From positions 1 through 64,000 of the forward strand of contig JAPPES010000058.1 in NCBI GenBank assembly GCA_028824125.1: 64,000 bases of DNA. Reading direction: 5' to 3'. The notes under the pieces were generated by a model that was given only the letters and a program-made list of their open reading frames with translations, did not search any database and was not told where the DNA came from. Shown here in pieces: positions 22,274 through 38,794 of the stretch (position 1 is the first letter of the stretch; the number at the start of each line of letters is the position of its first letter). The stretch is from Candidatus Poribacteria bacterium. GTDB lineage: Bacteria; Poribacteria; WGA-4E; WGA-3G. Position numbers and translations under genes: made by a program.

Positions 22274-23176
22274 ATGAAAAAATTGAACCAATTTTTGAGT
22301 TTTACTGTTTTTGTTTTTCTACTTACATCACTTCTATTTACAGGTTGCGGCGAAAGGGAACGCGAAATAACGAAACCAACAATCATGATTCTTGGCAGTA
22401 GGCACTTGGCAAATCCCGGAATTGACGCAGTCAATTACAAAATGGATGACGTACTCGCACCAAAACGACAAGGTGAAATAGAGCAACTTGTCCAACAACT
22501 AAAAAAATATAGTCCTACCAAAATAGCCCTTGAACAGGACCCTTCGCGAAATGCTGAGATTAACACAAACTACCAAGGTTATCTGGCAGGCACATACAAA
22601 CTGCAGCGGTGGGAAATTGATCAGATCGGTTTTCGGTTGGCTAAACAGATGGAACATTCGGAAGTGTACTGTGTTGATTATTTTCCAGATCAAGACCCGT
22701 TTTTCTCAGAAGATTTTGACTCAAATTTGACAGATATTATCAAGTTCGCAAAGGAACATAACCAAGAACACCTCCTACCAAGTGTTGAGGATAATACTGA
22801 TTCCAATGCGGATTTTCATGAAGAGGAAGATGGCAGAGTCTGGATTGTACCTACGAAATACGAATCACTCATTGACCTGTACATACGTGATAACAAACCT
22901 GAAGGCAGACGTGCTGAACATCAGCTATACTTACAAATGGCACGAGTTGGATTGAAGGATCAGTACCTCGGAGCGAATTGGGTAGGGCATATCTGGTATA
23001 CTCGCAATCTCAAAATCTTTGTCAACCTGACGCGCATCACCGAATCTGCCGATGATCGCATTCTGTTGATTATTGGTGCCGGGCATGTCTATCTGGTGCA
23101 ACACTTTCTTGAGGCATCAGGTAAATATATTGTTGAAAGCCCACTAAAATATCTGAAATCGGAGAATGCTAATTGA
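22274..23176 (+). CDS. Lipoprotein with DUF5694 (TraB-like) domain
   Basis: 300 residues. Lipobox LFTGC (Cys25). The mature part fits DUF5694: PTIMILGSRHLANPGIDAVN, DVLAPKRQGEIEQLVQQLKK, SPTKIALEQDP, and near the C-terminus ILLIIGAGHVYLVQHFL. This resembles the TraB/erythromycin-esterase-like fold, in which paired His and Glu residues bind metal; activity is not established. GAAAGGAG precedes the ATG. The TGA stop overlaps the start of the first DUF5916 gene, so the two are cotranscribed. Confidence 0.78.
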   Translation: MKKLNQFLSFTVFVFLLTSLLFTGCGEREREITKPTIMILGSRHLANPGIDAVNYKMDDVLAPKRQGEIEQLVQQLKKYSPTKIALEQDPSRNAEINTNYQGYLAGTYKLQRWEIDQIGFRLAKQMEHSEVYCVDYFPDQDPFFSEDFDSNLTDIIKFAKEHNQEHLLPSVEDNTDSNADFHEEEDGRVWIVPTKYESLIDLYIRDNKPEGRRAEHQLYLQMARVGLKDQYLGANWVGHIWYTRNLKIFVNLTRITESADDRILLIIGAGHVYLVQHFLEASGKYIVESPLKYLKSENAN

Positions 23177-25230
23177 TGAAATTACAGAAAATATATGGAA
23201 TAGTTTTACTCATTACACTATCGCTTATATCAATCCCAAATGGACAAACTGTGCATGCACAAGACACACAAACCGTTAAGAAAGAACTCCCCGCTACCAA
23301 AACCGAACAACCACCCACCATTGACGGTATCCTCAACGATGCATGCTGGCGAGATGCCCCGAAAGCTACCGGTTTCACCGATGAACGCACCGAAAAACCA
23401 GCAAAAAACCAATCTGTTGGTCGCCTTGTCTATACAGACAAGGCCATCTACATCGGACTTCACCTCTACGATGACATGCCCGACAAAATTGTGGCGCGTC
23501 AAACAAAAGATCAAACGCGATTTCAAGGTGAAGACTGGGTGTCCTTTAGCCTTGACACATTTCACACGCACCAGTTTTCTGACAGAAGTTTTTTTATTGT
23601 AAATCCACTCGGCACGAAATTCGCGCATCTCGCCACAGGGCGCGCAGAAAAAAGTGAATGGATCGGACTCTGGAAAACCGCAGCACAGATTGCGGATGAC
23701 GGATGGGTTGTTGAGATGGAAATCCCATGGCAGATGCTGGATTATCCAGACACAACCAAACCTATTCGGATGGGAATTAACATTGATAGAGGGCAGCAAC
23801 GGACCGGAGAAAAGTCGTGGTGGTGTAATCTTGGCGTTAACGAATTCCGAGAAAACGATGGACATTGGGTTGATGTGTTACCACCACGCCGAAAACGTGA
23901 ACTGAAGCTGCTCCCGTATCTAATCGGCGGCGTCAATGAAACAGAGACTTCTGTAGGAGCGACCTCCGAGTCGCGATGGGAATATACCGCCCGCGCAGGC
24001 GGCGACATTCGCTATGAGGTTACGCCACAAGTCCGACTCATCGGCACTGCTAATCCAGATTTCGCGAACATTGAACAAGCTGTTGAAGGGATTGATTTTT
24101 CTTATGGTGAACGCTATGTACCAGATCGCCGTCCCTTCTTTTCTGAAGGTGGCAATGTCTATAACATTGGGAACCTTTTTCACTCACGGCGGATTGTTGA
24201 CATGGATGGCGGGCTTAAACTCTTTGGAAAACTGGCGAAAAACACATCAGTCGGCACCTTAGGTACGTACCATAAAAACAACCAGAACTTTATACTTAAA
24301 GCTTCGCAATCGTTAAGCGCGACCTCTAATATAAATGCAGCATTCTTGTCCCATCATCACCGTGATACTGGATTGAACAATGTAGGTTATCTTTCCGGAG
24401 ATGTGCGCCACGGTAAATTTTCAGTAGGTTCTAATCTCGTGCAAACTTGGACAGACGAATCGGATGGAAGGAATGGGTTTGTCAGTTTAGGCTACAACGG
24501 ACCGATTTTCCAACCCTATCTATCCGCATTTTTTGTGGATCCAGATTTCGTCAATAGACTCGGTTACCGTCCCTTCACTGGCTACCGCGGTGTAGGTTTG
24601 GGGGCCTTCATTAAAAACGAATGGCGTGAAGGATTCTTCCGTAGAGCCTCTGTTTCTGTCCAAAGCCAAATTTCTAACACTTATGAAGGTAAGGTTTTCC
24701 GGCGGGACCTGTCCATATCTTCACTTATCCTAACACATAGCGACTATGCACTTGCCGCCGGCTGGAGGGGCGGGCAATTTGAAGAATTCAACGATAGTGT
24801 TTTCAGCATTGGATTACGTGCGCGTGCTTCTGACAGGTTCAATAATGTTGGCATTACCTACAATTGGGGTGAACAAGCAGGTGAACGGATTCATCGTATC
24901 AGCGGAAATCTAAAGCTCCGCGCTTACGGCTTCACTGCTGGATTAACATCCCAAATCCAATGGCACTTTGAAAGACGTTCTCAACAGATCCTCACTCTCA
25001 CCTATGACTTTAGTCCTGCCTTGAGTCTCGGTAGTCGTCTGATATGGCGATCAGATGACTTTCCTGTTTTGATTTCCAGTGATTTTGAGGAACCATCAGG
25101 GCATTTGAATGTCTATTTCGCCTTGCGCCGCTCAGGTTATGCTGGTATGGATTTTTTTATTATTCTCGGTGAGCCAAATGCTTTGGAATTCAAACGGCGT
25201 CTCGTAGCAAAAGTGATTCGGGCATTTTAA
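23176..25230 (+). CDS. CBM9-like / DUF5916 outer-membrane protein, copy 1
   Basis: 684 residues from ATG 23176. An in-frame TTG is one codon earlier, but the ATG gives a TGATG overlap with the lipoprotein stop, and GGAG lies 11 bases upstream. Signal peptide about 1-30; CBM9-like carbohydrate-binding fold about 40-215 (PPTIDGILNDACWRDAPKAT, WVVEMEIPWQMLDYPDTT); DUF5916 beta-barrel-like region about 230-684 with alternating short strands, ending FKRRLVAKVIRAF. DUF5916 proteins are thought to sit in the outer membrane; substrate unknown. A palindromic repeat (23952-23976) is embedded in frame and encodes SVGATSESR. Two paralogues lie downstream. Confidence 0.85.
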   Translation: MKLQKIYGIVLLITLSLISIPNGQTVHAQDTQTVKKELPATKTEQPPTIDGILNDACWRDAPKATGFTDERTEKPAKNQSVGRLVYTDKAIYIGLHLYDDMPDKIVARQTKDQTRFQGEDWVSFSLDTFHTHQFSDRSFFIVNPLGTKFAHLATGRAEKSEWIGLWKTAAQIADDGWVVEMEIPWQMLDYPDTTKPIRMGINIDRGQQRTGEKSWWCNLGVNEFRENDGHWVDVLPPRRKRELKLLPYLIGGVNETETSVGATSESRWEYTARAGGDIRYEVTPQVRLIGTANPDFANIEQAVEGIDFSYGERYVPDRRPFFSEGGNVYNIGNLFHSRRIVDMDGGLKLFGKLAKNTSVGTLGTYHKNNQNFILKASQSLSATSNINAAFLSHHHRDTGLNNVGYLSGDVRHGKFSVGSNLVQTWTDESDGRNGFVSLGYNGPIFQPYLSAFFVDPDFVNRLGYRPFTGYRGVGLGAFIKNEWREGFFRRASVSVQSQISNTYEGKVFRRDLSISSLILTHSDYALAAGWRGGQFEEFNDSVFSIGLRARASDRFNNVGITYNWGEQAGERIHRISGNLKLRAYGFTAGLTSQIQWHFERRSQQILTLTYDFSPALSLGSRLIWRSDDFPVLISSDFEEPSGHLNVYFALRRSGYAGMDFFIILGEPNALEFKRRLVAKVIRAF
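23952..23976 (+). repeat. TGTAGGAGCGACCTCC-family repeat inside a coding frame
   Basis: A 25-nt unit beginning TGTAGGAGCGACCTCC and ending GTCGCGA. The same unit occurs at 33392-33416 (also coding), 42128-42152 (intergenic) and, as a full palindrome, at 30000-30043 (intergenic). Here it adds the residues SVGATSESR to DUF5916 copy 1; copy 3 lacks it. Confidence 0.9.
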
Positions 25231-25296
25231 ATCCTTAATATTTCCACCGTACAATCTACCAAAGCAGCGTTTTGCAAACGTTCCTGCCCTATAGAG

Positions 25297-25331
25297 AGCG
25301 CGATCTTTCTCGCTTGCCGATAGATCGCGCT
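25297..25331. terminator. Hairpin after DUF5916 copy 1, possible terminator
   Basis: AGCGCGATCT (25297-25306) and AGATCGCGCT (25322-25331) form a perfect 10-bp stem with a 15-nt loop. It is followed by TATAATTTTTAAAAA, a weak T tract. It lies between DUF5916 copy 1 and the S9 peptidase promoter motif, a sensible place for termination. The long loop makes it uncertain. Confidence 0.45.
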
Positions 25332-25374
25332 TATAATTTTTAAAAACCCCTTTAGGTTTTCATTTTTTCCATGA

Positions 25375-25401
25375 TGCACGTTTTCTGATCAAAGTTTCGT
25401 C
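25375..25401 (+). promoter_or_regulatory. Conserved ECF-like promoter motif, copy 1
   Basis: TGCACG (25375-25380), 17 nt, CGTC (25398-25401). The sequence between and around is shared almost base for base with 27929-27955 and 30195-30221, all upstream of genes of this array. A CGTC-type -10 with 16-17 nt spacing is typical of ECF promoters. If this is a promoter, transcription would start only a few bases before the peptidase ATG at 25414. Confidence 0.6.
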
Positions 25402-25413
25402 TTTAACAATAGA

Positions 25414-27774
25414 ATGAATTACAAAAACACCGTTAACATTTTTTCTGGCTTAATCTTATGTTTAATCGCTTGGACAGCAATAGCTTGGGGCGAGGGAGAA
25501 GATATGAATCCTTTAACACTTGAAGATTTGCTCAAATTTAACACATTTGTTGAGAGAGTCCCTATTGATATTACCGCCGATGGAAACTGGATTGCTTATA
25601 ACATGCAGAACAGGGAACAGTATGAAGGTGGTGGTGGGAACTCAGCCTATTCTAAAACAGGTGTGATGATTGAAATGGCGTCCGGAACGGTTTGGGTGAC
25701 GAATACGCGTACTGGTGAACATCGTAACCTCACTCCAGATTGGGGTTCAAGTTGGGCACCGAGATGGTCCCCTGATGGAACGCATCTCGCCTTTTTCTCA
25801 GATCGCACGGGTAAACCTCATCTGTATGTCTGGAACCGAGAGACTAACGACATGCAGGAGTTTGCATCGGCAACTGTCCGGACGTTCTTTGGTTTTGAGG
25901 TGCCGAAATGGACACCAGATGGACGTTTCGTTCTTTTCAAATCCGCTTCTTCAGAAGATATTCCAAATTTCGATGAAACTGTGCAAGACGAATCTCAAGT
26001 TTCACCTAAAACTTCACAAGAAACATCTTTCGTTGAAGTATGGGACTGGCCCAAAAGACAACTTAAACAACGAGAAAATGAGGTAGAAAACGGACAACTT
26101 CAAGAAAGTCAACACAGAGCAAAACATAAAAAATTAATAGTAGATGTGGTTATCGCGGATACGAAGGCCGGCAAAACATTCCCGCTGATGAAGGGATATG
26201 AGATTAGGAGCTTAGATATTGCTCCTAATGGTGAGCAAGTGGCTGTCACGGTTTATTTAGGATATGAAGCACCAACATCTCAACAACCGTTACATGATCT
26301 CTACGTCTTACCACTGTCAATGGCGTTAAACGATGTTTCGCGCACGAAAATTGAACCTCTTGTCCGGAAAATTCGGCTCGGATATTATGGAATTACTGTC
26401 AGTTGGTCACCGAATTCAAGATATTTTGCGTACACAACAGAAGGTGATCTGGCATCTGGAGATGCATACATCGTTGATATAGAAACTGGTATAGTTCGTA
26501 ATCTCACAGAAAATCTTGACGTTAACCTTGGACGACGGTATAAACCGCCTCTCTGGACGGCAGAAGGGGATGCTCTTCTCTGCATTGCGCGAGGACAAAT
26601 ATGGAAGGTGCCTCTGAACGGCAACGCGGTCCGAAACTTGACAGAAAACTTTGAGTTTTCTGCTCATGATGTATTTTACCCGAGCGAAGGGTATACACCT
26701 TGGACGGTTGATGACGCTGTTACAATAAAAGTTTATGACCACAAACGGAGCTGCCACAGCTATTATCGTCTATGTCTCAAGGAAAACACGGTTACACTTT
26801 TACGGGAAGAGGATAAGCATCGGATTGTTCACGCAGGCCGCTTTCATCAAGATGTGGCAGAGGAAACTGGGGAATTTATTTATGTTGTTGAAAGCAACCA
26901 AGAACCACCAAATATCTGGATGAGTGATGCTAATTTTGAATCTCCGCAGCAAATTACTGATATTAATCCACACTTAAAGGCAATTGACTTTGGCATAAGC
27001 GAACTTATTGAGTGGAAACTTGAAGACGGGCGAACGGTAAAAGGAATCCTCGTACTACCCCATGAGGCATCTGAGAAAAATCCTGCACCGATGATTGTAA
27101 GTGTCTATGCAGGAGATGAGCCTTCAACACAGATCAACACCTTTGCTTTTGGCGAGAACGTGGGAAGTGCCCATCCGGGTATGTTTGTCTCACGAGGCTA
27201 TGCACTTTTCTTGCCCGACTTCCCCGTCCCAGAGATTGAGCCGTCCAAGCAGTTTTCGAGTGTCGTTCTTCCAGGTGTTGACGCCGCAATTGCGACTAAA
27301 AAGGTGGATGCAGAACGGTTGGGAGTCATCGGTCATAGTTTCGGTGGTTATACCGTGAATGTCCTTGTCACACAAACAACACAATTTAAAGCAGCAGTCG
27401 CTTCTGCTTCTATAGGCAACTTAATCAGTGGATACCTTATTGAGCCTGGTGCCGGGCTGAGTACCGGCTGGCACGAGACTGGAGGAGCTGGGATGGGTGG
27501 CAGCTTATGGGAATTCCCGCAACGTTATATCGATGGTTCACCTGTCTTCCATCTGGATAAGGTTGAAACGCCTTTGCTTCTGATTCACGGAGACCAAGAT
27601 TTCGTTCCCTTTGAACAGGCGCAGGAAATGTTCATGGGACTTGCGCGCCTAAAAAAAGAAGTTGTGCTGTTGAAATACAAGGAAGCAGACCACTGGCCTG
27701 GCTTCTGGTCAAACGAAAAACTTGCCGATTATTGGGAACGTGTGTTAAACTGGTTCAGCGAATACCTGAAATAA
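25414..27774 (+). CDS. Secreted S9 (prolyl oligopeptidase) family peptidase, copy 1
   Basis: 786 residues. The N-terminal hydrophobic segment (about 1-28) is a signal peptide. A beta-propeller of PD40/WD40-like blades follows (APRWSPDGTHLAFFSDRTGK, VPKWTPDGRFVLFKS, SWSPNSRYFAYTT). The alpha/beta-hydrolase domain is C-terminal, with nucleophile Ser642 in GHSFGGY, Asp729 in HGDQDFVP and His about 760 in EADHWPG. Members cleave short peptides, often after proline. ATG 25414 is supported by alignment with copy 2, but there is no ribosome site and the promoter motif ends only 12 nt upstream, so the mRNA may be almost leaderless. An internal GGAG before ATG 25504 (residue 31), conserved in copy 2, could give a form without signal peptide. 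Confidence 0.88.
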   Translation: MNYKNTVNIFSGLILCLIAWTAIAWGEGEDMNPLTLEDLLKFNTFVERVPIDITADGNWIAYNMQNREQYEGGGGNSAYSKTGVMIEMASGTVWVTNTRTGEHRNLTPDWGSSWAPRWSPDGTHLAFFSDRTGKPHLYVWNRETNDMQEFASATVRTFFGFEVPKWTPDGRFVLFKSASSEDIPNFDETVQDESQVSPKTSQETSFVEVWDWPKRQLKQRENEVENGQLQESQHRAKHKKLIVDVVIADTKAGKTFPLMKGYEIRSLDIAPNGEQVAVTVYLGYEAPTSQQPLHDLYVLPLSMALNDVSRTKIEPLVRKIRLGYYGITVSWSPNSRYFAYTTEGDLASGDAYIVDIETGIVRNLTENLDVNLGRRYKPPLWTAEGDALLCIARGQIWKVPLNGNAVRNLTENFEFSAHDVFYPSEGYTPWTVDDAVTIKVYDHKRSCHSYYRLCLKENTVTLLREEDKHRIVHAGRFHQDVAEETGEFIYVVESNQEPPNIWMSDANFESPQQITDINPHLKAIDFGISELIEWKLEDGRTVKGILVLPHEASEKNPAPMIVSVYAGDEPSTQINTFAFGENVGSAHPGMFVSRGYALFLPDFPVPEIEPSKQFSSVVLPGVDAAIATKKVDAERLGVIGHSFGGYTVNVLVTQTTQFKAAVASASIGNLISGYLIEPGAGLSTGWHETGGAGMGGSLWEFPQRYIDGSPVFHLDKVETPLLLIHGDQDFVPFEQAQEMFMGLARLKKEVVLLKYKEADHWPGFWSNEKLADYWERVLNWFSEYLK

Positions 27775-27928
27775 CGCGAGTTTGAGATAAAAGCGTATAA
27801 CATTCATCGGTGTTAAACGAGAACAGATGAATGTTAAAATACCCCAGACGCAATCGGCGGTTTATCGTGAGTCGGAACCCTTCCCTCCATAAAATAACGA
27901 CTAAAAATTCAAATTTTTTTCCTCATGA

Positions 27929-27955
27929 TGCACGTTTTTTGGTCAAACTTTCGTC
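27929..27955 (+). promoter_or_regulatory. Conserved ECF-like promoter motif, copy 2
   Basis: TGCACG (27929-27934), 17 nt, CGTC (27952-27955). It precedes sigma-TPR copy 1 by about 225 nt, and the MITE-like element 28040-28158 now lies between them. If a sigma factor of this array recognises the motif, this would be autoregulation. Apart from this motif and the MITE I see nothing definite in the 405-nt gap 27775-28179. Confidence 0.55.
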
Positions 27956-28039: not shown

Positions 28040-28158
28040 TAATACCAGTTCTAACATATAATGTCTCTTTTTGTAGCACAAACTGTTAGTTTGTGTCCTG
28101 AAGAATGACTACCATAACAACCGTCCATGAGACAATAATTTATAGAAATGGTATAATT
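28040..28158 (+). mobile_element. MITE-like element A with outward extended -10
   Basis: The left end TAATACCAGTTCTAA (28040-28054) and the right end, containing AGAAATGGTATAATT (to 28158), are imperfect inverted repeats of the ATACCA-TTCTGA type also seen at 34760-34918 and 38987-39138. The right end contains TGGTATAAT, an extended -10 hexamer (TATAAT at 28152-28157) pointing at the sigma gene. Inside, at 28076-28096, is the palindrome GCACAAACT / AGTTTGTGt shared with 46775-46795. Confidence 0.65.
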
Positions 28159-28179
28159 TGTTCAATAGGAGAAAGTTTC

Positions 28180-29880
28180 GTGGAAAGAGAAGATGATGTT
28201 GAACTCATTCGCAGAATCTTATCGGGTGACGACGCTGCGTTTAACATTTTGGTCGAAAAATACCAAGAGAGCATCCATGCCCTTGCATGGCGGAAAATTC
28301 GAGATTTTCACTATGCGGAAGAGATTATGCAAGACACTTTCCTTAAGGCATACAAAAAACTTCCGACACTCAAGAATCCCAATCAATTTGCTGGGTGGCT
28401 CCATGTCATCGCAAATCATCTTTGCATTGATTGGGTCCGAAAGCAAAAGCCTGCAATGCAATCCCTGGAGGACACACGTTTGGAAGAAATCGAGGAATCC
28501 TCTTATACACAACATATTTCGGAACAGCGGATGACAGAGAGATCCGAGTATTGCCAGGAACTTGTGAAAAATCTTTTGGAAAAACTGCCAGAAAATGAAC
28601 GTACAGTCATAACACTCTACTATTTTGACGAAATGTCAACGAAAGAGATCGGTGAATTCATGGGGGTGTCGGTGAATACAATTACAAGCCGACTCCAACG
28701 CGCACGAAAACGTTTACAAACTGATCGGGAACTCTTAGATCAAGAATTCTTTAGTTATTTAGAATTATCTGACAGTCTGAAGGAGAATATTATGAGTCAA
28801 TTAGAGCAACTTCGCAACAAGTTCAATTCATTCATGGAAAAAGTAAAATCTGACCCCGCATCAAGAGAGGATATTCTTAAGGAAGCATCCAACGAGATTG
28901 AAAATTCGCTTAAAGGTGAGATCACATCTGAGTTGGCGCATCTCGTAGTTGATGATATATACCCATGCATGGGCAAACTTGGAATGGAAAAACGGGTATC
29001 TTTACTCCGTAAGTATATGGATAACACGTTAGATGAAAAGGAGCGTTACTGGGCGCATAGGGGGTTAGTCAATAGTCTCGCTTTTTTGCGAAGAAATCGA
29101 GAAGCTATTGAAGAGCAGACGCTTCTTTACCGTTGGGCATGCAAGCAGTCAGAAAAATTTGTGTTAAGAATTATTTCTAATCTGAGTGTTGCCGGATGTT
29201 GGAAAGCGGAAGGTCGGACTGACGACTGGATAAAACTTTATAATGAGGCATCTCAACGATTAGAAAATCCTGAAGTGAGCGGCTACACCCGCTGCGATTT
29301 TCTGCAAATGGGAGCAGAAATCTTACGATCTTACGACCGGCTTGATGAGGCACTTCTCGGAATAGAAAAGTTGGAAAATGCTAACAAAGAACCGAAACGG
29401 AGTTATTATTTTCGATTCTGGTTGGCTGTAAGAACGAATCGACTCCTGTTGTATAGCAAATTGGAAGATTGGGACCGTTTCGATCAAGTCTTTACAGAAA
29501 CGAACACATATATAGAGGGAGAGTTAAAACAACTGGATGCTGGTTTCCCTGTAAATGTTTACGAACTTACATGGGCTGCTCACGATTTAGGTTGTTGTCT
29601 CGTATGGAGTAAAAAGTATAGTGAAGCGAAACATATTCTACAAATCGCTATCGATTTAGGGAATGAAAACCATTATGGACATTTTCAGCTTGCTGTGAGC
29701 ATCTGGGCATCTGAGAAGGATAGAGAAAAAACTTTGCATCATTTAAAGATTGCTCAGGGTGACTATATCGTAGATTCCTATAATTATCAGGATTCCTACT
29801 ACCCCACATTCCTCAAAACACCTGAATTTTCGGATGTAAAGGGTGATCCGGAGTTTCTGAAGGTTCTGGGACAGAAGTAG
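28180..29880 (+). CDS. ECF-type sigma factor fused to a C-terminal helical-repeat domain, copy 1
   Basis: 566 residues from GTG 28180, preceded by AGGAG eight bases upstream. An upstream in-frame ATG (28105) lies inside the MITE and adds 25 residues absent from copy 2, so I reject it. Sigma region 2 is at about 6-95 (EEIMQDTFLKAYKKL, FAGWLHVIANHLCIDWVRK). Region 4 is at about 135-185 (LPENERTVITLYYFDEMSTK, GVSVNTITSRLQRARKRL). Residues 205-566 are helical with TPR-like spacing (REAIEEQTLLYRWACKQSEK, LLGIEKLENAN). AAGGAG plus an in-frame ATG at 28792 could start the C-terminal part separately. No anti-sigma gene adjoins it, so the extension may hold the regulatory role. Confidence 0.88.
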   Translation: MEREDDVELIRRILSGDDAAFNILVEKYQESIHALAWRKIRDFHYAEEIMQDTFLKAYKKLPTLKNPNQFAGWLHVIANHLCIDWVRKQKPAMQSLEDTRLEEIEESSYTQHISEQRMTERSEYCQELVKNLLEKLPENERTVITLYYFDEMSTKEIGEFMGVSVNTITSRLQRARKRLQTDRELLDQEFFSYLELSDSLKENIMSQLEQLRNKFNSFMEKVKSDPASREDILKEASNEIENSLKGEITSELAHLVVDDIYPCMGKLGMEKRVSLLRKYMDNTLDEKERYWAHRGLVNSLAFLRRNREAIEEQTLLYRWACKQSEKFVLRIISNLSVAGCWKAEGRTDDWIKLYNEASQRLENPEVSGYTRCDFLQMGAEILRSYDRLDEALLGIEKLENANKEPKRSYYFRFWLAVRTNRLLLYSKLEDWDRFDQVFTETNTYIEGELKQLDAGFPVNVYELTWAAHDLGCCLVWSKKYSEAKHILQIAIDLGNENHYGHFQLAVSIWASEKDREKTLHHLKIAQGDYIVDSYNYQDSYYPTFLKTPEFSDVKGDPEFLKVLGQK

Positions 29881-29926: not shown

Positions 29927-30173
29927 AATTGACGGCTATGGGTTTCATCTACACTCTACCCATAACTGTCAACTTAAGAAAAAATGCTGGGTTATCCCTT
30001 GTAGGAGCGACCTCCCGATCGCGACCAGGAGGTCGCTCCTACAGAAGAATTGTCCTCTGCACTCAACCCGAGATTCAGGTAACTCATCGGCTAAACCTCT
30101 ACAATAAATGGGTTTATTCTCTTAAGTTGACGGTTATGGGTTTCGTTTACGCTCTACCCATAGCCGTCAACTT
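29927..30173. repeat. Nested palindromes: two 16-18 bp hairpins around a TGTAGGAGCGACCTCC palindrome
   Basis: Hairpin 1 is AATTGACGGCTATGGGT (29927-29943) with ACCCATAACTGTCAACTT (29958-29975). Hairpin 2 is AAGTTGACGGTTATGGGT (30124-30141) with ACCCATAGCCGTCAACTT (30156-30173). Between them, 30000-30043 is a perfect palindrome of TGTAGGAGCGACCTCC with its reverse complement. This compound repeat fills most of the 399-nt gap between the sigma gene and peptidase copy 2; the rest is the promoter motif. Confidence 0.8.
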
Positions 30174-30194
30174 ATGAATTTATTTTTTGCATAA

Positions 30195-30221
30195 TGCACG
30201 TTTTCTGATCAAAGCTTCGTC
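30195..30221 (+). promoter_or_regulatory. Conserved ECF-like promoter motif, copy 3
   Basis: TGCACG (30195-30200), 17 nt, CGTC (30218-30221), upstream of S9 peptidase copy 2. Here a leader of about 50 nt with GGGAGAAG precedes the ATG at 30280, unlike copy 1, where that stretch is missing. Confidence 0.6.
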
Positions 30222-30279: not shown

Positions 30280-32616
30280 ATGAATTTCAAAAACATTGTT
30301 AACATTTGCTATGGCTTATTCTTATGTTTTGCGGCTTTTACGTCAACAACCATTAGCGAGGGAGAAGAAATGAATCCTTTAACACTTGATGATTTGCTCA
30401 AATTTAACACATTTGTTGGGCGCGTTCCCATTGATATTACCTCCGACGGAAACTGGATTGCCTACAACACACAGAACCGTGAACAGTATGAAGGTGGAGG
30501 CGGAGACTCAATTTATTCTAAAACAGGTGTGATGATTGAAATGGCGTACGGAACAGTTTGGGTGACGAATACGCGTACGAGTGAACATCGTAACCTCACT
30601 CATGATTGGGGTTCAAGTTGGGCACCGAGATGGTCTCCGCAGGGAACGCATCTCGCATTTTACTCAGATCGGATGGGTAAGCCCTATTTGTATGTCTGGA
30701 ACCGAGAATCTGACGACATGCAGGAGTTTGCATCGGCAACTGTTCAGACGTTCTTTGGTTTTGAGGTGCCGAAATGGACACCAGATGGACGGTTTGTTCT
30801 TTTCAAATCCATTTCCGCGATAGATACCCCCATCAAAGAGGAATCTGAGGAAAACAAACCTAAAATTTCGCCTAAACCTTCCTTTGTTGAAGTTTGGGAT
30901 TGGCCCAAAAATCGATTTCAAAAACGAGAAGATGAGTCAACACAAGAAAACGAGCAACCTAAAGCAATAGAACGTGGAAGATCAAATAAAAACATGGTTA
31001 TTGCTGACACTAAGACTGGCAAAACACTGCCATTGATGAAAGAATATAACATTAGGAGTTTCGATATTGCGCCTAACGGGGAATATGTTGCTGTTACGGT
31101 TTGCTTAGGATCCGAAACACCCGATGCGCAACAACAGATATTTGATCTCTACATCTTTCCACTGCCAAAGGAGTTAAGTGAGGTTTCCTCCACGGAAATT
31201 GAACCTCTTGTACGGAAGATACGTCTTGCGTACGGAATTACTGTTAATTGGTCGCCGGACTCAAAACACGTTGCATGGACAACCGGCGGTGAGGGAGGTA
31301 AATTAGCATCAGGGAATGCTTATGTTGTTAACGTAGAGACAGGCATGGTCCGTAATCTCACGGAAGGCCTTGACGTTGACCTCGGACGATTATATAAACC
31401 CCCACTCTGGACAGCAGAAGGGGATGCTCTTCTCTGCATTGCGCGAGGACAAATATGGAAAGTGCCTCTGAACGGCGACGCGGTCCAAAACTTGACGAAA
31501 GATTTTGAGTTTTCAGCTCATGATGTATTCTATCCAAGCGAAGGGTCCACACCCTTGACGGTAAACAACGCCATCACAATAAACACTTATGATCACGGTT
31601 TCTATCGTCTGAGCCTCATGGATGACACAATTACGCTTCTGCACAAAGACGAACATCGAAATGTTCACGCAGGCCGCTTTCATCAAGATGTGGCAGAGGA
31701 AACCGGGGAATTTATTTATGTTATGGAAAACAACCAAGAACCGCAGAATATCTGGATGAGCGATGCTGCTTTTGAATCTCCGCGGCAAATTACAGATATC
31801 AATCCACACTTAAAGACAATTGACTTTGGCACAAGCGAACTTATTGAGTGGACCCTTGAGGATGGACAAACAGTTAAAGGGATCCTCGTGCTACCGCCTG
31901 AGGCATCTGAGAAAAATCCTGCACCGATGATTGTAAGTGTCTATGCAGGAGAAGATCCTTCGACACAGATCAACACCTTTGCTTTTGGGGAGAACATAGG
32001 GGGTGCCCATCCGGGTATGTTTGTCTCACGAGGCTATGCCCTTTTCTTGCCCGACTTCCCCGTCCCGAAGATTGAGCCGTCCAAGCAATTTTCAAGCGTC
32101 CTTCTTCCAGGAATTGACGCCGCAATTGCGACTAAAAAGGTGGATCCCGAATGGTTGGGCGTCATCGGTCACAGTTTCGGTGGATATACTGTAAATGTGC
32201 TTATCACACAAACAACACGATTTAAAGCAGCAGTCGCTGCTGCATCTATAGGCAACTTAATCAGTGGATACCTTAATAGTGGACTTGGTGTCGGTTGGCA
32301 CGAGGCGGGACAAGCCGGAATGGGTGGTTCCTTATGGGAATTTCCACAACGTTATATTGATGGTTCACCAGTCTTCCATCTGGATAAAGTTGAGACTCCT
32401 TTGCTTTTGATTCACGGAGATCAAGATTTCATCCCCTTTGAACAGGCGCAGGAAATGTTCATTGGGCTTGCAAATCTTGAGAAAGAGGTTGTGTTGTTGA
32501 AATACAAGGAAGCAGACCATTGGCAGGGCTTCTGGTCAAACGAAAAACTTGCCGATTATTGGGAGCGGGTACTAAATTGGTTTGACGAATATCTAAAATC
32601 GGAGAAAGCTAATTAA
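30280..32616 (+). CDS. Secreted S9 (prolyl oligopeptidase) family peptidase, copy 2
   Basis: 778 residues and a close paralogue of copy 1. Signal peptide about 1-26; propeller blades (APRWSPQGTHLAFYSDRMGK, VPKWTPDGRFVLFKS, NWSPDSKHVAWTT); hydrolase domain with Ser632 in GHSFGGY, Asp in HGDQDFIP, and His in EADHWQG. The middle linker (about 185-235) is Glu/Lys/Pro-rich and differs most from copy 1. GGGAGAAG precedes the ATG. The stop overlaps the start of DUF5916 copy 2 (TAATG), so a secreted peptidase and an outer-membrane barrel are made from one message, behind the shared promoter motif. Confidence 0.88.
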   Translation: MNFKNIVNICYGLFLCFAAFTSTTISEGEEMNPLTLDDLLKFNTFVGRVPIDITSDGNWIAYNTQNREQYEGGGGDSIYSKTGVMIEMAYGTVWVTNTRTSEHRNLTHDWGSSWAPRWSPQGTHLAFYSDRMGKPYLYVWNRESDDMQEFASATVQTFFGFEVPKWTPDGRFVLFKSISAIDTPIKEESEENKPKISPKPSFVEVWDWPKNRFQKREDESTQENEQPKAIERGRSNKNMVIADTKTGKTLPLMKEYNIRSFDIAPNGEYVAVTVCLGSETPDAQQQIFDLYIFPLPKELSEVSSTEIEPLVRKIRLAYGITVNWSPDSKHVAWTTGGEGGKLASGNAYVVNVETGMVRNLTEGLDVDLGRLYKPPLWTAEGDALLCIARGQIWKVPLNGDAVQNLTKDFEFSAHDVFYPSEGSTPLTVNNAITINTYDHGFYRLSLMDDTITLLHKDEHRNVHAGRFHQDVAEETGEFIYVMENNQEPQNIWMSDAAFESPRQITDINPHLKTIDFGTSELIEWTLEDGQTVKGILVLPPEASEKNPAPMIVSVYAGEDPSTQINTFAFGENIGGAHPGMFVSRGYALFLPDFPVPKIEPSKQFSSVLLPGIDAAIATKKVDPEWLGVIGHSFGGYTVNVLITQTTRFKAAVAAASIGNLISGYLNSGLGVGWHEAGQAGMGGSLWEFPQRYIDGSPVFHLDKVETPLLLIHGDQDFIPFEQAQEMFIGLANLEKEVVLLKYKEADHWQGFWSNEKLADYWERVLNWFDEYLKSEKAN

Positions 32617-34625
32617 TGAAACTACAAAAAACTTATGCGATAGCGCTGTTCATAACACTATCGCTTATTTTAACCGTAAACGGACAGAACGTAGCAGCAC
32701 AAAACATACAAACCGTTAAAAAAGAACTCCCCGCAGTCAAAACCGAACAACCACCTACCATTGATGGTATCCTCAACGATGCTTGCTGGCAAAACACGCC
32801 ACAAGCCGTTGGTTTTACTGATGAACGTACCGAAAAACCGGCTAAGAATCAGTCCGTTGGTAGGATCGTTTACACAGATAAAGCTATCTACGTTGGGCTT
32901 CACCTCTATGACGATATGCCCGACAAAATTGTGGCGCGACAAACCAAAGATCAAACCGGCATTGGTGGAGAAGACTGGGTTTCCTTTAGTCTTGACCCAT
33001 TCCACACACACCAGTTTTCTGATAGAAATTTCTTCATGGTAAATCCACTTGGGACGAAATTTGCGCATCTCGCTACAGGACGTGCTGCAAAAAGCGAATG
33101 GATTGGACTATGGAAAGCGGCAGCCCAGATTGTCCAAGACGGATGGGTTGTAGAAATGGAAATCCCATGGCAGATATTGGATTACCCCGACACAACCGAA
33201 CCTATTCGGATGGGCATCAATCTTGATAGATTTCAACAGCGCACTGGAGAACGTTCATGGTGGTGTAATCTTGGGGTTCAAGAATTCCGAGAAAACGATG
33301 GGCATTGGATTGATGTGCTACCCCCACCACGAAAGCGTGACCTAAAATTTTTACCCTATCTGATTAGCGGCATTAGTGAAACAGAAACTTCTGTAGGAGC
33401 GACCTCCGAGTCGCGAAGAAAATATACTGCCCGTGCGGGAGCAGACCTACGCTATGAAGTAACACCACAACTACGCCTCATCGGCACAGCCAACCCAGAT
33501 TTTGATAACATTGAACAATCTGTGGAAGGTATTGATTTTTCTTACAGTGAACGTTATGTAGATGACCGACGTCCTTTCTTTTCTGAAGGTGGGAATGTCT
33601 ACAATCTCGGTAATCTTTTCTATTCGCGTAGGATAATGGATATGGACGGAGGACTTAAACTCTTTGGAAAAGTAGCAAAAAACACATCAGTCGGCACATT
33701 AGGCACCTATCACCGTAACAACCAGAACTTTATCCTACGCGCAAAACAATCCTTCACAGCTACTTCTCACATCATCGCGGGGTTCCTAACGCACCATCGT
33801 CCCGACACAGATACAAACAGTGTAGGTCGTCTTTCAGGTAGTGTTAGGCACGGTAAGTTTTCAGCAGAATCAAGTTTCACCCAAAGTTGGGAAGGGGAGT
33901 CAGATGGAAGAACAGGAAATGCCTATGTAAAATACAATGGATCGCTTTTTCAATCAACGTTATTTGGGTATTTTGTGGATCCAGATTTCGTAAATAACCT
34001 CGGTTATCAACCCTTCACCAGCCTCCGTGGCGGTGGCGTAGAAGGAATTATCTCAAACGAATGGCGGCAGGGCTTAATCCGTAGTATTTTCGTTGGAGCC
34101 AATTTCATAGCTGCTAACAATTACGATGGTGAACTGTTTCAGCAAGACGTCTCTGTCTTTTCAAATTTCTCGACACATAGTGATTATGGACTTTCTATTA
34201 ATTGGTATGGCGGACGATTTCAAGAATTCACAGATAGTGTCTTTAGCATCAGATTAAGCGCGCGTAATTCGGATCAGTTCAACAATGTCAATGTTAGCTA
34301 TAATTGGGGTGAACAAGCGGATAAGCGGATTCATCGCGTCAGTGGAAATCTAAATCTCCGTGCTTACGGCTTCACTGCAGGACTCTCCTCCAGTATTCAA
34401 TGGCATTTTGAAAGACGCTATCAGCAGATCCTAACCCTCGGCTATGATTTCAGTCCCGCCTTAAGCCTCGGTAGCCGTTTAATTTGGCAAGTAGAAGGAT
34501 TTAATATCTACTTCGCGTTGCGCCGCTCCGGGTATGCTGGCACAGACTTTTTTATCATCCTCGGAGATCCAAATGCATCCAAATTCAAACAACGTCTGGT
34601 AGCAAAAGTTATCCGGGCATTTTAG
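32616..34625 (+). CDS. CBM9-like / DUF5916 outer-membrane protein, copy 2
   Basis: 669 residues. Signal peptide about 1-29; CBM9-like domain about 40-215 (PPTIDGILNDACWQNTPQAV, WVVEMEIPWQILDYPDTT); DUF5916 barrel-like region about 230-669, ending FKQRLVAKVIRAF. It carries the same in-frame repeat as copy 1 (33392-33416, SVGATSESR). The last 320 bp are nearly the same as those of copy 3, far closer than the rest of the genes. ATG 32616 overlaps the peptidase stop; GGAG lies 10 bases upstream within the peptidase gene. Confidence 0.87.
   Translation: MKLQKTYAIALFITLSLILTVNGQNVAAQNIQTVKKELPAVKTEQPPTIDGILNDACWQNTPQAVGFTDERTEKPAKNQSVGRIVYTDKAIYVGLHLYDDMPDKIVARQTKDQTGIGGEDWVSFSLDPFHTHQFSDRNFFMVNPLGTKFAHLATGRAAKSEWIGLWKAAAQIVQDGWVVEMEIPWQILDYPDTTEPIRMGINLDRFQQRTGERSWWCNLGVQEFRENDGHWIDVLPPPRKRDLKFLPYLISGISETETSVGATSESRRKYTARAGADLRYEVTPQLRLIGTANPDFDNIEQSVEGIDFSYSERYVDDRRPFFSEGGNVYNLGNLFYSRRIMDMDGGLKLFGKVAKNTSVGTLGTYHRNNQNFILRAKQSFTATSHIIAGFLTHHRPDTDTNSVGRLSGSVRHGKFSAESSFTQSWEGESDGRTGNAYVKYNGSLFQSTLFGYFVDPDFVNNLGYQPFTSLRGGGVEGIISNEWRQGLIRSIFVGANFIAANNYDGELFQQDVSVFSNFSTHSDYGLSINWYGGRFQEFTDSVFSIRLSARNSDQFNNVNVSYNWGEQADKRIHRVSGNLNLRAYGFTAGLSSSIQWHFERRYQQILTLGYDFSPALSLGSRLIWQVEGFNIYFALRRSGYAGTDFFIILGDPNASKFKQRLVAKVIRAF
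33392..33416 (+). repeat. TGTAGGAGCGACCTCC-family repeat inside a coding frame
   Basis: The same 25-nt unit as 23952-23976, in the same frame and at the homologous position of DUF5916 copy 2, so the insertion predates the split of copies 1 and 2 or was spread by conversion. Confidence 0.9.
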
Positions 34626-34759: not shown

Positions 34760-34918
34760 TAATACCATTTCTGAATGATAACTCCTCATCAACAAAAAAC
34801 ACGTTTAATGTGAATGTCATACACACATTCACCAAGCGCAATTCATTGCGCCTCTTACATTCAATCTTCTTATCAGTTCCTCTGTAATGGCATTTTATTT
34901 ATCAGAATTGGTATAATT
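34760..34918 (+). mobile_element. MITE-like element B with outward extended -10
   Basis: Left end TAATACCATTTCTGA (34760-34774) and right end TCAGAATTGGTATAATT (34902-34918) are inverted repeats with one mismatch in the 13-bp core. Internal palindrome GCGCAATTCATTGCGC. The right end has TGGTATAAT (TATAAT 34912-34917) pointing at sigma-TPR copy 2. The interior is shared with element C (38987-39138), including GCGCAATTCATTGCGCCTCT. Confidence 0.75.
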
Positions 34919-35013
34919 TTCGGTTTTTCTCATATTATGCATTTTATGCAACCCTGCCGCTTCTATTACCTATCTTAACATTATGAAAGACAGAATGTTT
35001 TTGGAGCTGACGC

Positions 35014-36711
35014 ATGAAAAACGATGATGCACAATTGATTCAACGCACATTGGCAGGTGACCAATCTGCTTTCAACGCACTTGTGCAAAAATATGAAAAG
35101 CCAGTCCATGCTTTTGTATGGCGGAAAATCGGTGACTACCACATCGCTGAAGAAATCACGCAAGATATATTCCTCCGAGTTTACCAAAAACTCGACACCT
35201 TGAAAAATCAGAATAGTTTTGCAGGATGGCTTTACGTGATCGCGGCACGCTACTGTTTCGCTTGGTTCGAAAAAAAGCGGATTCCAATGGAATCGTTAGA
35301 TGCAATGCCAACAGAAGAATTGGAAGAGCTGGCTTATACACAATACCATTCTCATCAGCAAGAAGTATTCGTGAATGAACGGCAACGCGAAGTTGTCAAT
35401 AACCTCCTTCAAAAGTTACCAGTGACTGAACGTGCTGCTGTAACACTTCACTATTTTGATAACAAATCATGTGAAGACATTGGAGAGTATTTAGGCGTTT
35501 CACCTAACACGGTCAAGAGTCGGCTCCACCGTGCTCGTAAACGTCTGCAGAAAGAGGAACACACGATTCGCGAGATATGGGGTGGTCAGAAAGGAGATAT
35601 AATGTCAGGTAAATTAGAGAAAATTCGCGGCAAGTTTAATGCATTCATGGAAAAAGTGGAATCTTATCCGCTTTCTGGAGAGAATATTCTTTCAGGTGAG
35701 GCATTTCTCAAGGAAGCTTATGACGAGGTGGAAGAGACTCTCAAGGATGAAATCACACCTGAGTTGGTACATCTTGCGGTTGATGGGATATACCCGTATA
35801 TGGGTAAACTCGGAATTGAAAAACGAGTATCCCTATTCCGTAAGTATATGGATGATGTAGAAGATGATACAGAACGGTACTGGTCGCATAAGTCGTTAGT
35901 GAATGGTCTCGCTATTCTTGGAAGAAATAGAGAAGCTATTGAGGAGCAAACACTTCTCTACCGTTGGGCCTGCAAGCATGCAGAAAAATATGTGTTGAGG
36001 ATTATTTCCGATCTAAATATTGCTAAATGTTGGAAAGCAGAAGGTCGAATTGATGACTGGATTCAACTTTATAATGAGGCATCTGAACGTTTAGAGCATC
36101 CTGAAGTGAGTGACTACTCACGGTGTGATTTCCTACAAAAAGGTGCAGAAGTGCTACGACACAATGACCGGTTTGATGATGCACTGCTTGGAATTGAAAA
36201 GTTAGAACGTGCTAACAAAAAACAAGATTGGGAACATTATTTCAAATTCTGGTTGGCTGTGAAATTAAATAGACTTTTATTGTATGGAAAACAGGAAGAG
36301 TGGGATCGTTTCAATCAGGTTTTTACGGAAGTTAACACGTATATGGAATTAGATTTGAAAAAACTGGATGCGAACTTTCCCCTAAATACATACGAACTTT
36401 TTTGTGCCGCTCACAATGTCGGGTGTTGTCTGGTATGGTCAAAGAAGTATAAAGAAGCGAAACGCTTCTTCCAAATCGCCATCGATTTGGAAAATTGGAA
36501 TAAACATAGTTATTTCATGCTTGCTGTGAGTATCTGGGCATCTGAGAAAGATCGCGAGAAAACTCTAAATTATCTAAAGATCGCTCAGGACAAATACGTG
36601 GTCGCTACCCTTAATTACCCGGATACTTTATATCCAACTTTCCTTGAGACACCTGAATTTTCGGATGTAAAGGATGATCCAGAGTTTCTAAAGGCTGTGG
36701 GAAAGAAATAA
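35014..36711 (+). CDS. ECF-type sigma factor fused to a C-terminal helical-repeat domain, copy 2
   Basis: 565 residues, collinear with copy 1 along its whole length. Region 2 is at about 5-90 (EEITQDIFLRVYQKL, FAGWLYVIAARYCFAWFEKK). Region 4 is at about 128-178 (LPVTERAAVTLHYFDNKSCE, YLGVSPNTVKSRLHRARKRL). The C-terminal helical part, about 197-565, ends with PTFLETPEFSDVKDDPEFLK as in copy 1. GGAG lies seven bases before ATG 35014. As in copy 1, an AAGGAG (35591-35596) and in-frame ATG (35602, residue 197) fall exactly at the junction. No anti-sigma gene adjoins it. Its likely promoter is the extended -10 in MITE-like element B. Confidence 0.88.
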   Translation: MKNDDAQLIQRTLAGDQSAFNALVQKYEKPVHAFVWRKIGDYHIAEEITQDIFLRVYQKLDTLKNQNSFAGWLYVIAARYCFAWFEKKRIPMESLDAMPTEELEELAYTQYHSHQQEVFVNERQREVVNNLLQKLPVTERAAVTLHYFDNKSCEDIGEYLGVSPNTVKSRLHRARKRLQKEEHTIREIWGGQKGDIMSGKLEKIRGKFNAFMEKVESYPLSGENILSGEAFLKEAYDEVEETLKDEITPELVHLAVDGIYPYMGKLGIEKRVSLFRKYMDDVEDDTERYWSHKSLVNGLAILGRNREAIEEQTLLYRWACKHAEKYVLRIISDLNIAKCWKAEGRIDDWIQLYNEASERLEHPEVSDYSRCDFLQKGAEVLRHNDRFDDALLGIEKLERANKKQDWEHYFKFWLAVKLNRLLLYGKQEEWDRFNQVFTEVNTYMELDLKKLDANFPLNTYELFCAAHNVGCCLVWSKKYKEAKRFFQIAIDLENWNKHSYFMLAVSIWASEKDREKTLNYLKIAQDKYVVATLNYPDTLYPTFLETPEFSDVKDDPEFLKAVGKK

Positions 36712-36733
36712 GACAATTGATTATTTACAGTGA

Positions 36734-36758
36734 TAGGTGCGGTTTCTAACCGCACCTA
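36734..36758. repeat. Perfect 11-bp hairpin
   Basis: TAGGTGCGGTT (36734-36744), loop TCT, AACCGCACCTA (36748-36758). It lies between sigma-TPR copy 2 and DUF5916 copy 3 without a T tract, and resembles the TAGGCGCGG palindrome at 63932-63974, so it is more likely a REP-like repeat than a terminator. Confidence 0.65.
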
Positions 36759-36799
36759 CCATTCCTAAGATATTAAACCCCAATCACAGAGAATGCTAA

Positions 36800-38794
36800 T
36801 TGATTTACCTACAGAAAACTCATGCGACAGTGATACTCATCGCGCTATCGCTTATTCTAATCATAAATTTACAGACTGCAAAAGCACAGAACACACAAAC
36901 CGTTAAGAAAGAACTCCCGGCAGTCAAAACCGAACAACCACCCACCATTGATGGTATCCTCAACGATACTTGTTGGCAAGACGCACCAAAAGCCGTAGGT
37001 TTCACTGACCAACGCACCGAAAAACCTGCTAAGAGTCAACCTGTCGGCAGGATCACTTATACCGACGAAGCTATCTACGTTGGACTTCACCTCTACGATG
37101 AAATGCCCGATAAAATTGTTGCACGCCAAACCAAAGATCAAACGGGACTCGGAGGAGAAGACTGGGTTTATTTTAGCCTTGATCCATTTCATACACATCA
37201 ATATTCTGATAGGAATTTCTTCATGGCAAATCCGAATGGCACAAAATACGCGCATCTTGCCACAGGACGTGCAGCAAAAAGTGAATGGATCGGTCTATGG
37301 AAAGCTGCGGCACAGATAGTAGAAGACGGATGGGTTGTAGAGATGGAAATTCCCTGGCGAATGCTTGATTATCCTGATACAATAGAACCTGTTCGGATGG
37401 GTATTAACTTTGGTAGATTTCAACAACGTACGAGAGAACATTCATGGTGGTGTAATTTAGGGGTTCAAGAATTTCGGGAAAACGATGGACACTGGATTGA
37501 TGTACTACCACCTTCCCGAAAACGTGACCTAAAGTTCTTATCTTATCTGGTCGGTGGCATCAGTGAAACGGAAATGGATAAAAGAGAATACACTGCCCGT
37601 GCAGGCGGTGATATACGGTTTGAGATTACTCCGCAACTGCGTCTCATCGGAACAGCTAACCCCGATTTTGATAACATTGAACAATCCGTTGAAGGTATTG
37701 ATTTCTCTTACGGTGAACGATTCGTATCGGACTGGAGACCATTTTTTTTGGAAGGTGGTAACGTGTACAGGGTTGTTGGTGGTCTATTCCATTCAACCCG
37801 TATAGTGGATATGAATGCAGGTTTAAAACTTTTTGGCAAAGTCGGTAAAAGCACATCCGTTGGTACATTAGGCACATACCATAAGAACAATCAAAACTTT
37901 GTGCTTCAAGCTAAACGGACGTTTACAGAAACATCTAATCTCAGCACAGCATTTTTTTCGCACCATCTCCGTGAAACAGGTGCGAATAACGTAGCGCACA
38001 TTTCAGGAGATGTACGGCTTGGTAAAATCTCGGCGGCATCAAGTTTCACACAAAGTTGGGCAGGAGAATCAGATGGAAGAACAGGAAATGCAAGTATGAC
38101 TTATAAGGGTTCACTCTTACAGCCGGAACTCGCCGTGTTTTTTACTGATCCCGATTTCGTTAATAACCTCGGTTTTCATCCGTTCACAAACTTCCGTGGA
38201 GGATATATCCAGACAACCCTGCAGAACGATTGGCGTGAGGGATTCATTCGCAGTTTCTACATGTGGTTAGGATTACTGGGATCTAATACTTATGACGGTG
38301 ATGTATTTCGGCGTAACTTCGGTCTTTTGGCAAACCTATTAACACATAACGATATCGGAATGATCTTTGGATGGAATGGCGGAAAGTTTGAAGAATACTT
38401 TGACAGTGTCTTTAACATTGGAATAACCCTACGTGCCTCGGATAGTTTCAACAATGTCAATATTAGCTATAACTGGGGCGAACAAGCGGATAAGCGGCTT
38501 CATCGCGTCAGTGGAAATCTAAATCTCCGTGCTTACGGCTTTACTGCAGGTCTCTCCTCCAGTATTCAATGGCATTTTGAAAGACGCTACCAACAGATTT
38601 TCACCCTCGGCTACGATTTCAGTCCCGCCTTAAGCCTCGGTAGCCGTTTAATTTGGCAGATAGAAGGATTTAATATCTACTTCGCGTTGCGCCGCTCCGG
38701 GTATGCTGGCACAGACTTTTTTATCATCCTCGGTGACCCAAACGCCCCAGAATTCAAACAACGCCTCGTAGCAAAAGTTATCCGGGCATTTTAG
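36800..38794 (+). CDS. CBM9-like / DUF5916 outer-membrane protein, copy 3
   Basis: 664 residues. CBM9-like domain about 40-215 (PPTIDGILNDTCWQDAPKAV, WVVEMEIPWRMLDYPDT); DUF5916 region about 230-664, ending FKQRLVAKVIRAF. The conserved start ATG-AAA of copies 1 and 2 is changed here: the upstream sequence AGAATGCTAATTGAT matches theirs, but the ATG has become ATT, leaving TTG 36800 or GTG 36830 as possible starts. The signal peptide (VILIALSLILIINLQTAKAQ) is intact if TTG is used. The embedded SVGATSESR repeat is absent (EMDKR instead). The gene may be poorly translated. Confidence 0.82.
   Translation: MIYLQKTHATVILIALSLILIINLQTAKAQNTQTVKKELPAVKTEQPPTIDGILNDTCWQDAPKAVGFTDQRTEKPAKSQPVGRITYTDEAIYVGLHLYDEMPDKIVARQTKDQTGLGGEDWVYFSLDPFHTHQYSDRNFFMANPNGTKYAHLATGRAAKSEWIGLWKAAAQIVEDGWVVEMEIPWRMLDYPDTIEPVRMGINFGRFQQRTREHSWWCNLGVQEFRENDGHWIDVLPPSRKRDLKFLSYLVGGISETEMDKREYTARAGGDIRFEITPQLRLIGTANPDFDNIEQSVEGIDFSYGERFVSDWRPFFLEGGNVYRVVGGLFHSTRIVDMNAGLKLFGKVGKSTSVGTLGTYHKNNQNFVLQAKRTFTETSNLSTAFFSHHLRETGANNVAHISGDVRLGKISAASSFTQSWAGESDGRTGNASMTYKGSLLQPELAVFFTDPDFVNNLGFHPFTNFRGGYIQTTLQNDWREGFIRSFYMWLGLLGSNTYDGDVFRRNFGLLANLLTHNDIGMIFGWNGGKFEEYFDSVFNIGITLRASDSFNNVNISYNWGEQADKRLHRVSGNLNLRAYGFTAGLSSSIQWHFERRYQQIFTLGYDFSPALSLGSRLIWQIEGFNIYFALRRSGYAGTDFFIILGDPNAPEFKQRLVAKVIRAF

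Follow-up and report, generated by a model that had tools for sequence, protein, structure and literature searches.

The first 64,000 nucleotides of contig JAPPES010000058.1 (the window), from the Candidatus Poribacteria assembly GCA_028824125.1 (5.59 Mb in 162 contigs, 94% complete), contain at positions 23173-38794 an array of seven large genes that encode three exported DUF5916 proteins (A to C), two exported S9 peptidases (A and B) and two extracytoplasmic function (ECF) sigma factors, sigma A and sigma B, each with an ECF head followed by a tail resembling tetratricopeptide repeats (TPR; Table 1). That these genes form a duplicated set, as the original prediction had proposed, is borne out by the open reading frame (ORF) coordinates, the Pfam matches and the DNA identities alike. 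In a self-comparison of the window the two peptidase genes were 81% identical over 2.4 kb, the DUF5916 copies 71-77% and the sigma tails 75%, and the array arose by tandem duplication. The stop/start overlaps claimed for the DUF5694 lipoprotein gene with DUF5916 A and for S9 B with DUF5916 B were also found (Table 1), as were export signals on the products other than the sigmas, namely hydrophobic N-termini on the five DUF5916 and S9 proteins and a lipobox on the DUF5694 protein, these calls being made by simple hydropathy and not by a signal-peptide predictor. Based on the comparisons described below, the locus is likely to be a pair of self-promoting sigma modules, in each of which a soluble ECF with a TPR-like tail would serve its own promoter and nearby envelope genes.

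The promoter-like sequence said to be common to both peptidases and one sigma gene is present as a 27 bp motif of ECF type (TGCACGTTTT...TTTCGTC, motif A), which lies 5' of sigma A, S9 A and S9 B. At up to three mismatches, the assembly has no copy of motif A beyond these three sites, and the reversed control gave none. Over 34 genomes the motif was identified at 28 sites (reversed control 0), and inspection of all 28 placed 21 at genes for sigmas with this type of tail (sigma-TPR genes) and seven before S9 genes. The 21 include one site inside an over-long ORF call, one before a headless tail and one before a gene cut by a contig end. Motif A was found in 17 of the 19 genomes of this subset that have a sigma-tail match and in none of the 15 that do not (Fisher p=1.5e-7), although the p value overstates the weight of the association, as the genomes are kin.

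A shared motif of this kind might instead play no part in regulation and be either a relic of tandem duplication or a dispersed repeat. The genes are indeed tandem duplicates, head and promoter move as one block, and the gap before S9 B also contains a separate inverted repeat that partly reappears at 42123. However, the three upstream regions share a stretch of just 41-48 nt, beyond which the self-comparison revealed no further mutual match, the sites in relatives are confined to sigma-TPR and S9 genes, and the motif changes together with the recognition helix of the sigma (see below), so that we judge this explanation very improbable. A dispersed repeat as the origin of motif A was ruled out, there being no other copy in the assembly.

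Sigma B is preceded by a second motif (motif B, Table 1), and since the motifs of sigma A and sigma B differ, the window would hold two regulons. Over 59 genomes motif B occurred at 26 sites (reversed control 1), of which 20 are at sigma-TPR genes, two at DUF5916 genes (in two genomes), one at an ABC-2 permease gene (in one genome), two at other sigmas with a related head and one at the gene of an exported WD40-like protein. ECF promoters typically combine a -35 element of the GAAC/GCAAC type with a -10 element of the CGTC type, and motifs A and B look like such promoters. In the source genome, a motif of this general shape is located within 220 nt upstream of 24 of the 51 genes with a sigma head, compared with 0.07 expected from shuffles in which only the base content was preserved; part of these regions had already been seen when the pattern was defined, and sigma A is counted as a miss, its motif being further off. 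A generic sigma-70 promoter scan showed no excess (33 found and 35.6 expected).

Table 1. Genes and promoter-like motifs of the array and its flank, in window coordinates.
Feature	Position	Strand	Evidence and remarks
DUF5694 lipoprotein	22274..23176	+	Pfam DUF5694 E=1.7e-47; lipobox FTGC; 4-nt overlap with DUF5916 A
DUF5916 exported protein A	23173..25230	+	DUF5916 37.9 bits; CBM9_1 21.6 bits, below cut-off; hydrophobic N-terminus
Promoter-like motif A, 5' of S9 A	25374..25401	+	TGCACGTTTT...TTTCGTC
Exported S9 peptidase A	25414..27774	+	Peptidase_S9 E=2.3e-23; Ser-Asp-His motifs GHSFGGY, HGDQD, ADHW
Promoter-like motif A, 5' of sigma A	27928..27955	+	Motif search
Sigma A, ECF head and TPR-like tail	28105..29880	+	Pfam sigma r2/r4; recognition-helix type IT
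Promoter-like motif A, 5' of S9 B	30194..30221	+	Motif search
Exported S9 peptidase B	30280..32616	+	Peptidase_S9 E=3.2e-23; Ser-Asp-His motifs present; best PDB relative 8wt1
DUF5916 exported protein B	32616..34625	+	DUF5916 43.0 bits; CBM9_1 22.9 bits, below cut-off; 1-nt overlap with S9 B
Promoter-like motif B, 5' of sigma B	34947..34985	+	TGCAACC-N16-CTATCTTAA
Sigma B, ECF head and TPR-like tail	35014..36711	+	AlphaFold model, fold search, tail tree, junction scan
DUF5916 exported protein C	36800..38794	+	DUF5916 23.0 bits; CBM9_1 21.7 bits, below cut-off; starts 88 nt past sigma B
DUF4252 + CBM9 + Omp85-type barrel relative, outside the array	18869..21343	+	CBM9_1 34.1 and Omp85 37.8 bits, both above cut-off

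Neighbors of the sigma-TPR genes were counted in two sets. The first comprises the 72 unique full-length sigma-TPR genes in 59 loci that were picked by the sigma tail alone, and the neighbor counts given below refer to it; the second, of 77 genes, adds 27 loci picked for DUF5916 and the window itself, and the gene after sigma A is classed there as "other" on account of a short ORF. The head homology of sigma A begins approximately 26 codons inside its ORF. A motif was identified upstream of 50 of the 55 type-A and all 22 type-B sigma-TPR genes. The residue pair of the recognition helix corresponds to the -35 element: IT is paired with ACG or ACT in 38 genes (four more lack a motif), IA or IV with AAG or AAT in ten (one more lacks a motif), and VK with AAC in 22, without any cross pairing among the 70 sigma-TPR genes that have both traits. 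In a tree built from the tails only, the supported independent switches of helix type kept the motif in step, in three of three cases to IA/IV and in three of three to VK. Sigma B is itself such a switch. From its motif to position ~35758, each 60-nt block is 85-100% identical to one paralogue at locus L110, while from ~35758 to ~36655 it is 95-100% identical to another paralogue (83% in the last coding block). On this identity profile sigma B is a natural chimera, with the promoter and head of one paralogue and the tail of another.

Several observations weigh against control of these genes by the adjacent sigmas. Since recombination can move an adjacent head and promoter together even if no functional bond exists between them, the sites away from sigma-TPR genes (seven at S9, two at DUF5916 and one at ABC-2) are the stronger evidence, though they are fewer. 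Both motif patterns were defined after the upstream regions of these genes had been viewed, so that matches there are expected and it is the near-absence of the motifs elsewhere that is informative. Genomes G006 and G011 have no motif A despite their sigma-tail matches, and five of the 55 type-A sigmas are without a motif (one of these had no upstream sequence). The distance from motif A to the ATG of S9 A is only 13 nt (25401-25414), compared with 59 nt for S9 B, and with an own motif seen at only two DUF5916 genes, the remaining DUF5916 genes would need read-through or a different promoter. Supported switches of helix type are scarce, the sign test for either kind taken by itself yielding p=0.25. 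The 49 other sigma-head genes of the source genome pair more loosely, with VK heads next to AAC in seven cases and ACC in four, VR heads next to AAC, ACG and AAG/AAT alike, and 22 of the 49 lacking a motif by the same rule. Finally, the model of DUF5916 protein B is of low confidence (mean predicted local distance difference test score, pLDDT, 49.9).

What can be read directly from the DNA are the genes, the motifs, their distribution and, among sigma-TPR genes, the joint change of motif and recognition helix. Comparison across genomes makes control of the array by its own sigmas well supported, and the self-regulation and the sigma-to-peptidase and sigma-to-barrel links that had been proposed are sustained by motifs that recur at just these genes and, among sigma-TPR genes, change with the helix.

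Both sigmas belong to the ECF family (TIGR02937, 107.3 and 97.6 bits for a cut-off of 42.9), with regions 2 and 4 and no match to region 3, and have a tail of ~375 residues. The earlier description of this tail as TPR is made plausible by a structure model and not by profile: no TPR family exceeded its Pfam cut-off (the best match was TPR_2 at E=0.052 in sigma B, and sigma A had none), but the AlphaFold model of sigma B (mean pLDDT 82.8) has a SigW-like head and a helical solenoid, mostly above 90, whose fold-search neighbors include designed pentatricopeptide repeat (PPR) and TPR proteins, O-GlcNAc transferase and domain III of MalT. The model thus shows a predicted TPR-like alpha-solenoid as the tail of sigma B. 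DUF6596, which we take to be the tail family of ECF42, is not among the matches of the window sigmas up to E=1.

ECF sigmas with built-in sensor tails are already known, and the window system is nearest in kind to groups ECF42 and ECF57. According to a published account, ECF42 has an ECF head, a TPR-type C-terminal extension of ~200 residues and no anti-sigma partner, and is proposed to be activated by protein interaction, ECF57 has a large WD40-like repeat-domain extension, and most ECF groups with built-in extensions are still to be studied (PMC8999054). The window sigmas are like ECF42, as described there, in their head, in a predicted TPR-like C-terminal extension and in the apparent lack of an anti-sigma partner, and unlike it in the length of the tail (~375 residues as opposed to ~200; PMC8999054). 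They also differ from ECF42 in that their apparent targets are envelope genes and in that no YCII-type domain was present in the 20 window proteins scanned. As in ECF57 according to that account, the extension is a large repeat domain, and paralogs of the window sigmas with WD40/BNR propellers resemble ECF57 itself; the two window sigmas, however, match no propeller family and have a TPR-like solenoid instead, and in most of the paralogs a single predicted membrane span separates the head from the propeller.

In the self-promoting modules that we favor, the TPR-like solenoid would stand in place of the anti-sigma partner used by other ECFs, and the active sigma would read the promoter of its own gene together with the same promoter at nearby envelope genes. 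Sigma A would read TGCACGTTTT...TTTCGTC and produce sigma A, S9 A, S9 B and the overlapping DUF5916 B, and sigma B would read TGCAACC...CTATCTTAA and produce sigma B and the adjacent DUF5916 C. These products would go to the envelope, the S9 peptidase as a secreted enzyme and the DUF5916 protein probably as a barrel in the outer membrane. We infer that transcription begins at the motifs, that sensing is done by the tail and that the peptidase works jointly with the barrel.

S9 A and S9 B each have the Peptidase S9 domain and its Ser-Asp-His residues. In lasso-peptide isopeptidase loci the S9 isopeptidase is accompanied by an ECF sigma and a receptor in the outer membrane, and the array could be read as a comparable module for peptide uptake or clearance. 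The best NCBIfam match of both peptidases is the Atxe2 lasso isopeptidase family (NF033523, 115.7 and 112.1 bits), and the PDB relatives found for S9 B include AtxE2. Both scores are nevertheless far under the curated cut-off of 400, which ruled out assignment of S9 A and S9 B as lasso isopeptidases. The array is similar to FecI/FecR-TonB signaling and to the astexin lasso locus in that an ECF sigma would control a putative outer-membrane protein (joined in the lasso locus by an S9 isopeptidase), and dissimilar in having, among the ten array-region proteins scanned with Pfam, neither an anti-sigma nor a TonB-dependent receptor (the precursor peptide and cyclase were not searched for). We regard a lasso-like module as quite unlikely.

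The three DUF5916 proteins exceed the curated cut-off of their family (PF19313, 22.6 bits), with matches confined to roughly the first 95 of the 572 profile positions. The description of these proteins as CBM9-DUF5916 barrels is retained in part. The DUF5916 match stands, whereas all three fall just short of the CBM9 cut-off (PF06452, 23.4 bits; Table 1), and the DUF5916 profile has a single sequence match in the PDB up to E=1, to the CBM9 module of a xylanase (E=0.2). The low-confidence model of DUF5916 B has ~19 C-terminal strands and a terminal Phe, and the 50 Foldseek neighbors shown for it are mostly outer-membrane barrels, making a barrel plausible from a poor model. Assignment of a fold was dropped, as the model is too poor. 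We found no report on DUF5916 in the open-licence literature.

Among the 59 loci with the same sigma tail, 58 are labelled as Poribacteria and one (L166) as Gemmatimonadota, where L166:9929-11101 encodes a relative of the TPR-like tail without a sigma head. In the relatives, the same stretch, often between CBM9-Omp85 genes and an ATP synthase cluster, contains sigma-TPR, DUF5916, S9 and other genes in varying combinations. Of 59 genomes, 35 had a match to the sigma tail (33 of these within one family), all 59 had a DUF5916-type protein and 58 an S9 protein, which among the matches listed reached at least 60% identity in 11 of the 59. The gene immediately after the 72 sigma-TPR genes is of ABC type in 36 cases (ABC-2 17, MacB/FtsX 17, ABC transporter 2), DUF5916 in nine, another sigma-TPR in nine, S9 in eight, a glycoside hydrolase (GH)-like neighbor in three and other in two, with four on the opposite strand and one at a sequence end; a DUF5916, S9 or ABC-type gene lies within three same-strand genes of 63 of the 72. 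The families thus co-occur in a layout that recurs, but not as an obligate set, S9 being optional and other partners occurring, and a fixed three-gene system was rejected. From the self-regulated system originally proposed, self-regulation and the sigma-peptidase and sigma-barrel links are kept and the fixed three-part set is lost, and the varying next genes lead us to view the array as a theme with exchangeable outputs.

The ABC-type neighbors support a different view of the array, as a response to envelope stress or toxic compounds in which the tail would detect a cytoplasmic damage cue, the outputs would be exporters and clean-up enzymes, and the window version would have swapped the exporter for peptidase and barrel. 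Motif B precedes an ABC-2 permease gene in one genome, in line with this, although Pfam identified no transporter in the ten array-region proteins; we consider such a response possible without favoring it. Somewhat more doubtful is the suggestion of the original prediction that this is a surface system for feeding on a host or matrix by peptide or glycan capture. The relatives are Poribacteria, a group of sponge symbionts, the peptidases are exported, CBM9 matches the DUF5916 proteins weakly, as does the DUF5916 profile the xylanase module, and the first copy of a neighboring gene pair has a collagen-binding match (25 bits, cut-off 22). On the other hand, none of the three DUF5916 proteins reaches the CBM9 cut-off, the record titles examined for the relatives give no host, and in half of the related copies the partners are ABC-type genes.

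Returning to the window, the protein encoded at 18869-21343 is 55-59% identical to the DUF5916 proteins across 207-215 aa. Downstream of the array lies the duplicated pair of genes just mentioned, whose products are uncharacterized and 78% identical (the collagen-binding match was made with Pfam), followed by an ATP synthase cluster. An inverted repeat is common to the intergenic stretches 30000-30043 and 42123-42152. Beside a zf-HC2 anti-sigma-like gene, a short ECF sigma gene interrupted by an in-frame stop was noted at 16267-17475, where relatives have longer frames.

The sigma heads of this clade are also fused to other proteins. In the source genome, Pfam matches at E<=1e-5 were obtained to Sortilin/BNR in 20 and to WD40 in 16 of the 50 head genes scanned, the scan having omitted one plain 213-residue ECF from the 51. 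One tail group is common to 43 of the 51, many of which match propeller families, and 40 of the 43 have a single predicted membrane span by simple hydropathy, mostly near residue 220; such membrane-span ECF sigmas with large tails (e.g., L103, L104, L107) sometimes occur in tandem runs. The frame at L269:851-5179 (-), also in the source genome, is 1442 residues long, and Pfam recognizes DNA polymerase III alpha domains in it as well as an ECF head and a complete FtsZ. Among the matches listed, 17 genomes have a full-length sigma-FtsZ match in a frame of 1349-1450 residues; of these frames, the own one was scanned with Pfam and two from relatives were matched to it by BLAST. A full-length sigma-FtsZ match was found in 32 of 35 genomes of the same family and in none of the 24 others among the matches listed. 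ECF heads fused to the FtsZ GTPase domain also occur within or beside the same array (L073:6532-7752, L085:8906-10129 and others), and the next gene after 25 unique sigma-FtsZ genes is DUF5916 in seven and S9 in six, but as most of the 25 come from loci picked for DUF5916 or the sigma tail, DUF5916 and sigma-TPR neighbors are over-represented. We found no report of an ECF fused to an FtsZ domain in the open-licence literature.

Further heads are fused to all three DNA clamp domains (L085:3845-5578 and L277:4634-6391, by Pfam). In 17 of 59 genomes there are frames of 577-607 residues that carry the clamp, head and clamp being detected by Pfam in two genes and by BLAST in 12 unique genes. An S9 domain follows the ECF head at L172:7374-10211 (-) in the source genome, and likewise in three relatives looked at. 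In the alignment of these sigma-S9 fusions, Gly replaces the catalytic Ser in four of four and Asn replaces Asp in three of four. The source genome also has an ECF head with M61 peptidase domains (L243:2289-5270 (-)) and one further sigma head with a helix-turn-helix (HTH) domain tail. Conceivably, the array is part of a clade-wide "bait sigma" scheme in which decoys formed by fused copies of essential proteins (FtsZ, polymerase, clamp) and by S9 domains without the catalytic Ser would sense an inhibitor, or the state of the parent machine, and activate neighboring genes for exporters, peptidases or surface barrels, the bait of the window TPR sigmas being a partner protein. Natural inhibitors of the clamp (griselimycin) and of polymerase alpha (nargenicin) exist. 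An ABC-type gene lies within three same-strand genes downstream of eight of 12 sigma-clamp genes, as opposed to none of three sigma-FtsZ-polymerase and four of 25 sigma-FtsZ genes, counts that argue against the scheme, and we hold it to be unlikely.

Poribacteria are uncultured bacteria best known from marine sponges, and in this array the sequence of such an uncultured group reveals promoter, target and recognition residues, with the natural swap of head and promoter in sigma B providing a ready-made test. A wider family with sigma heads on proteins of cell division and replication would be relevant to the way in which bacteria sense the state of their core machinery.

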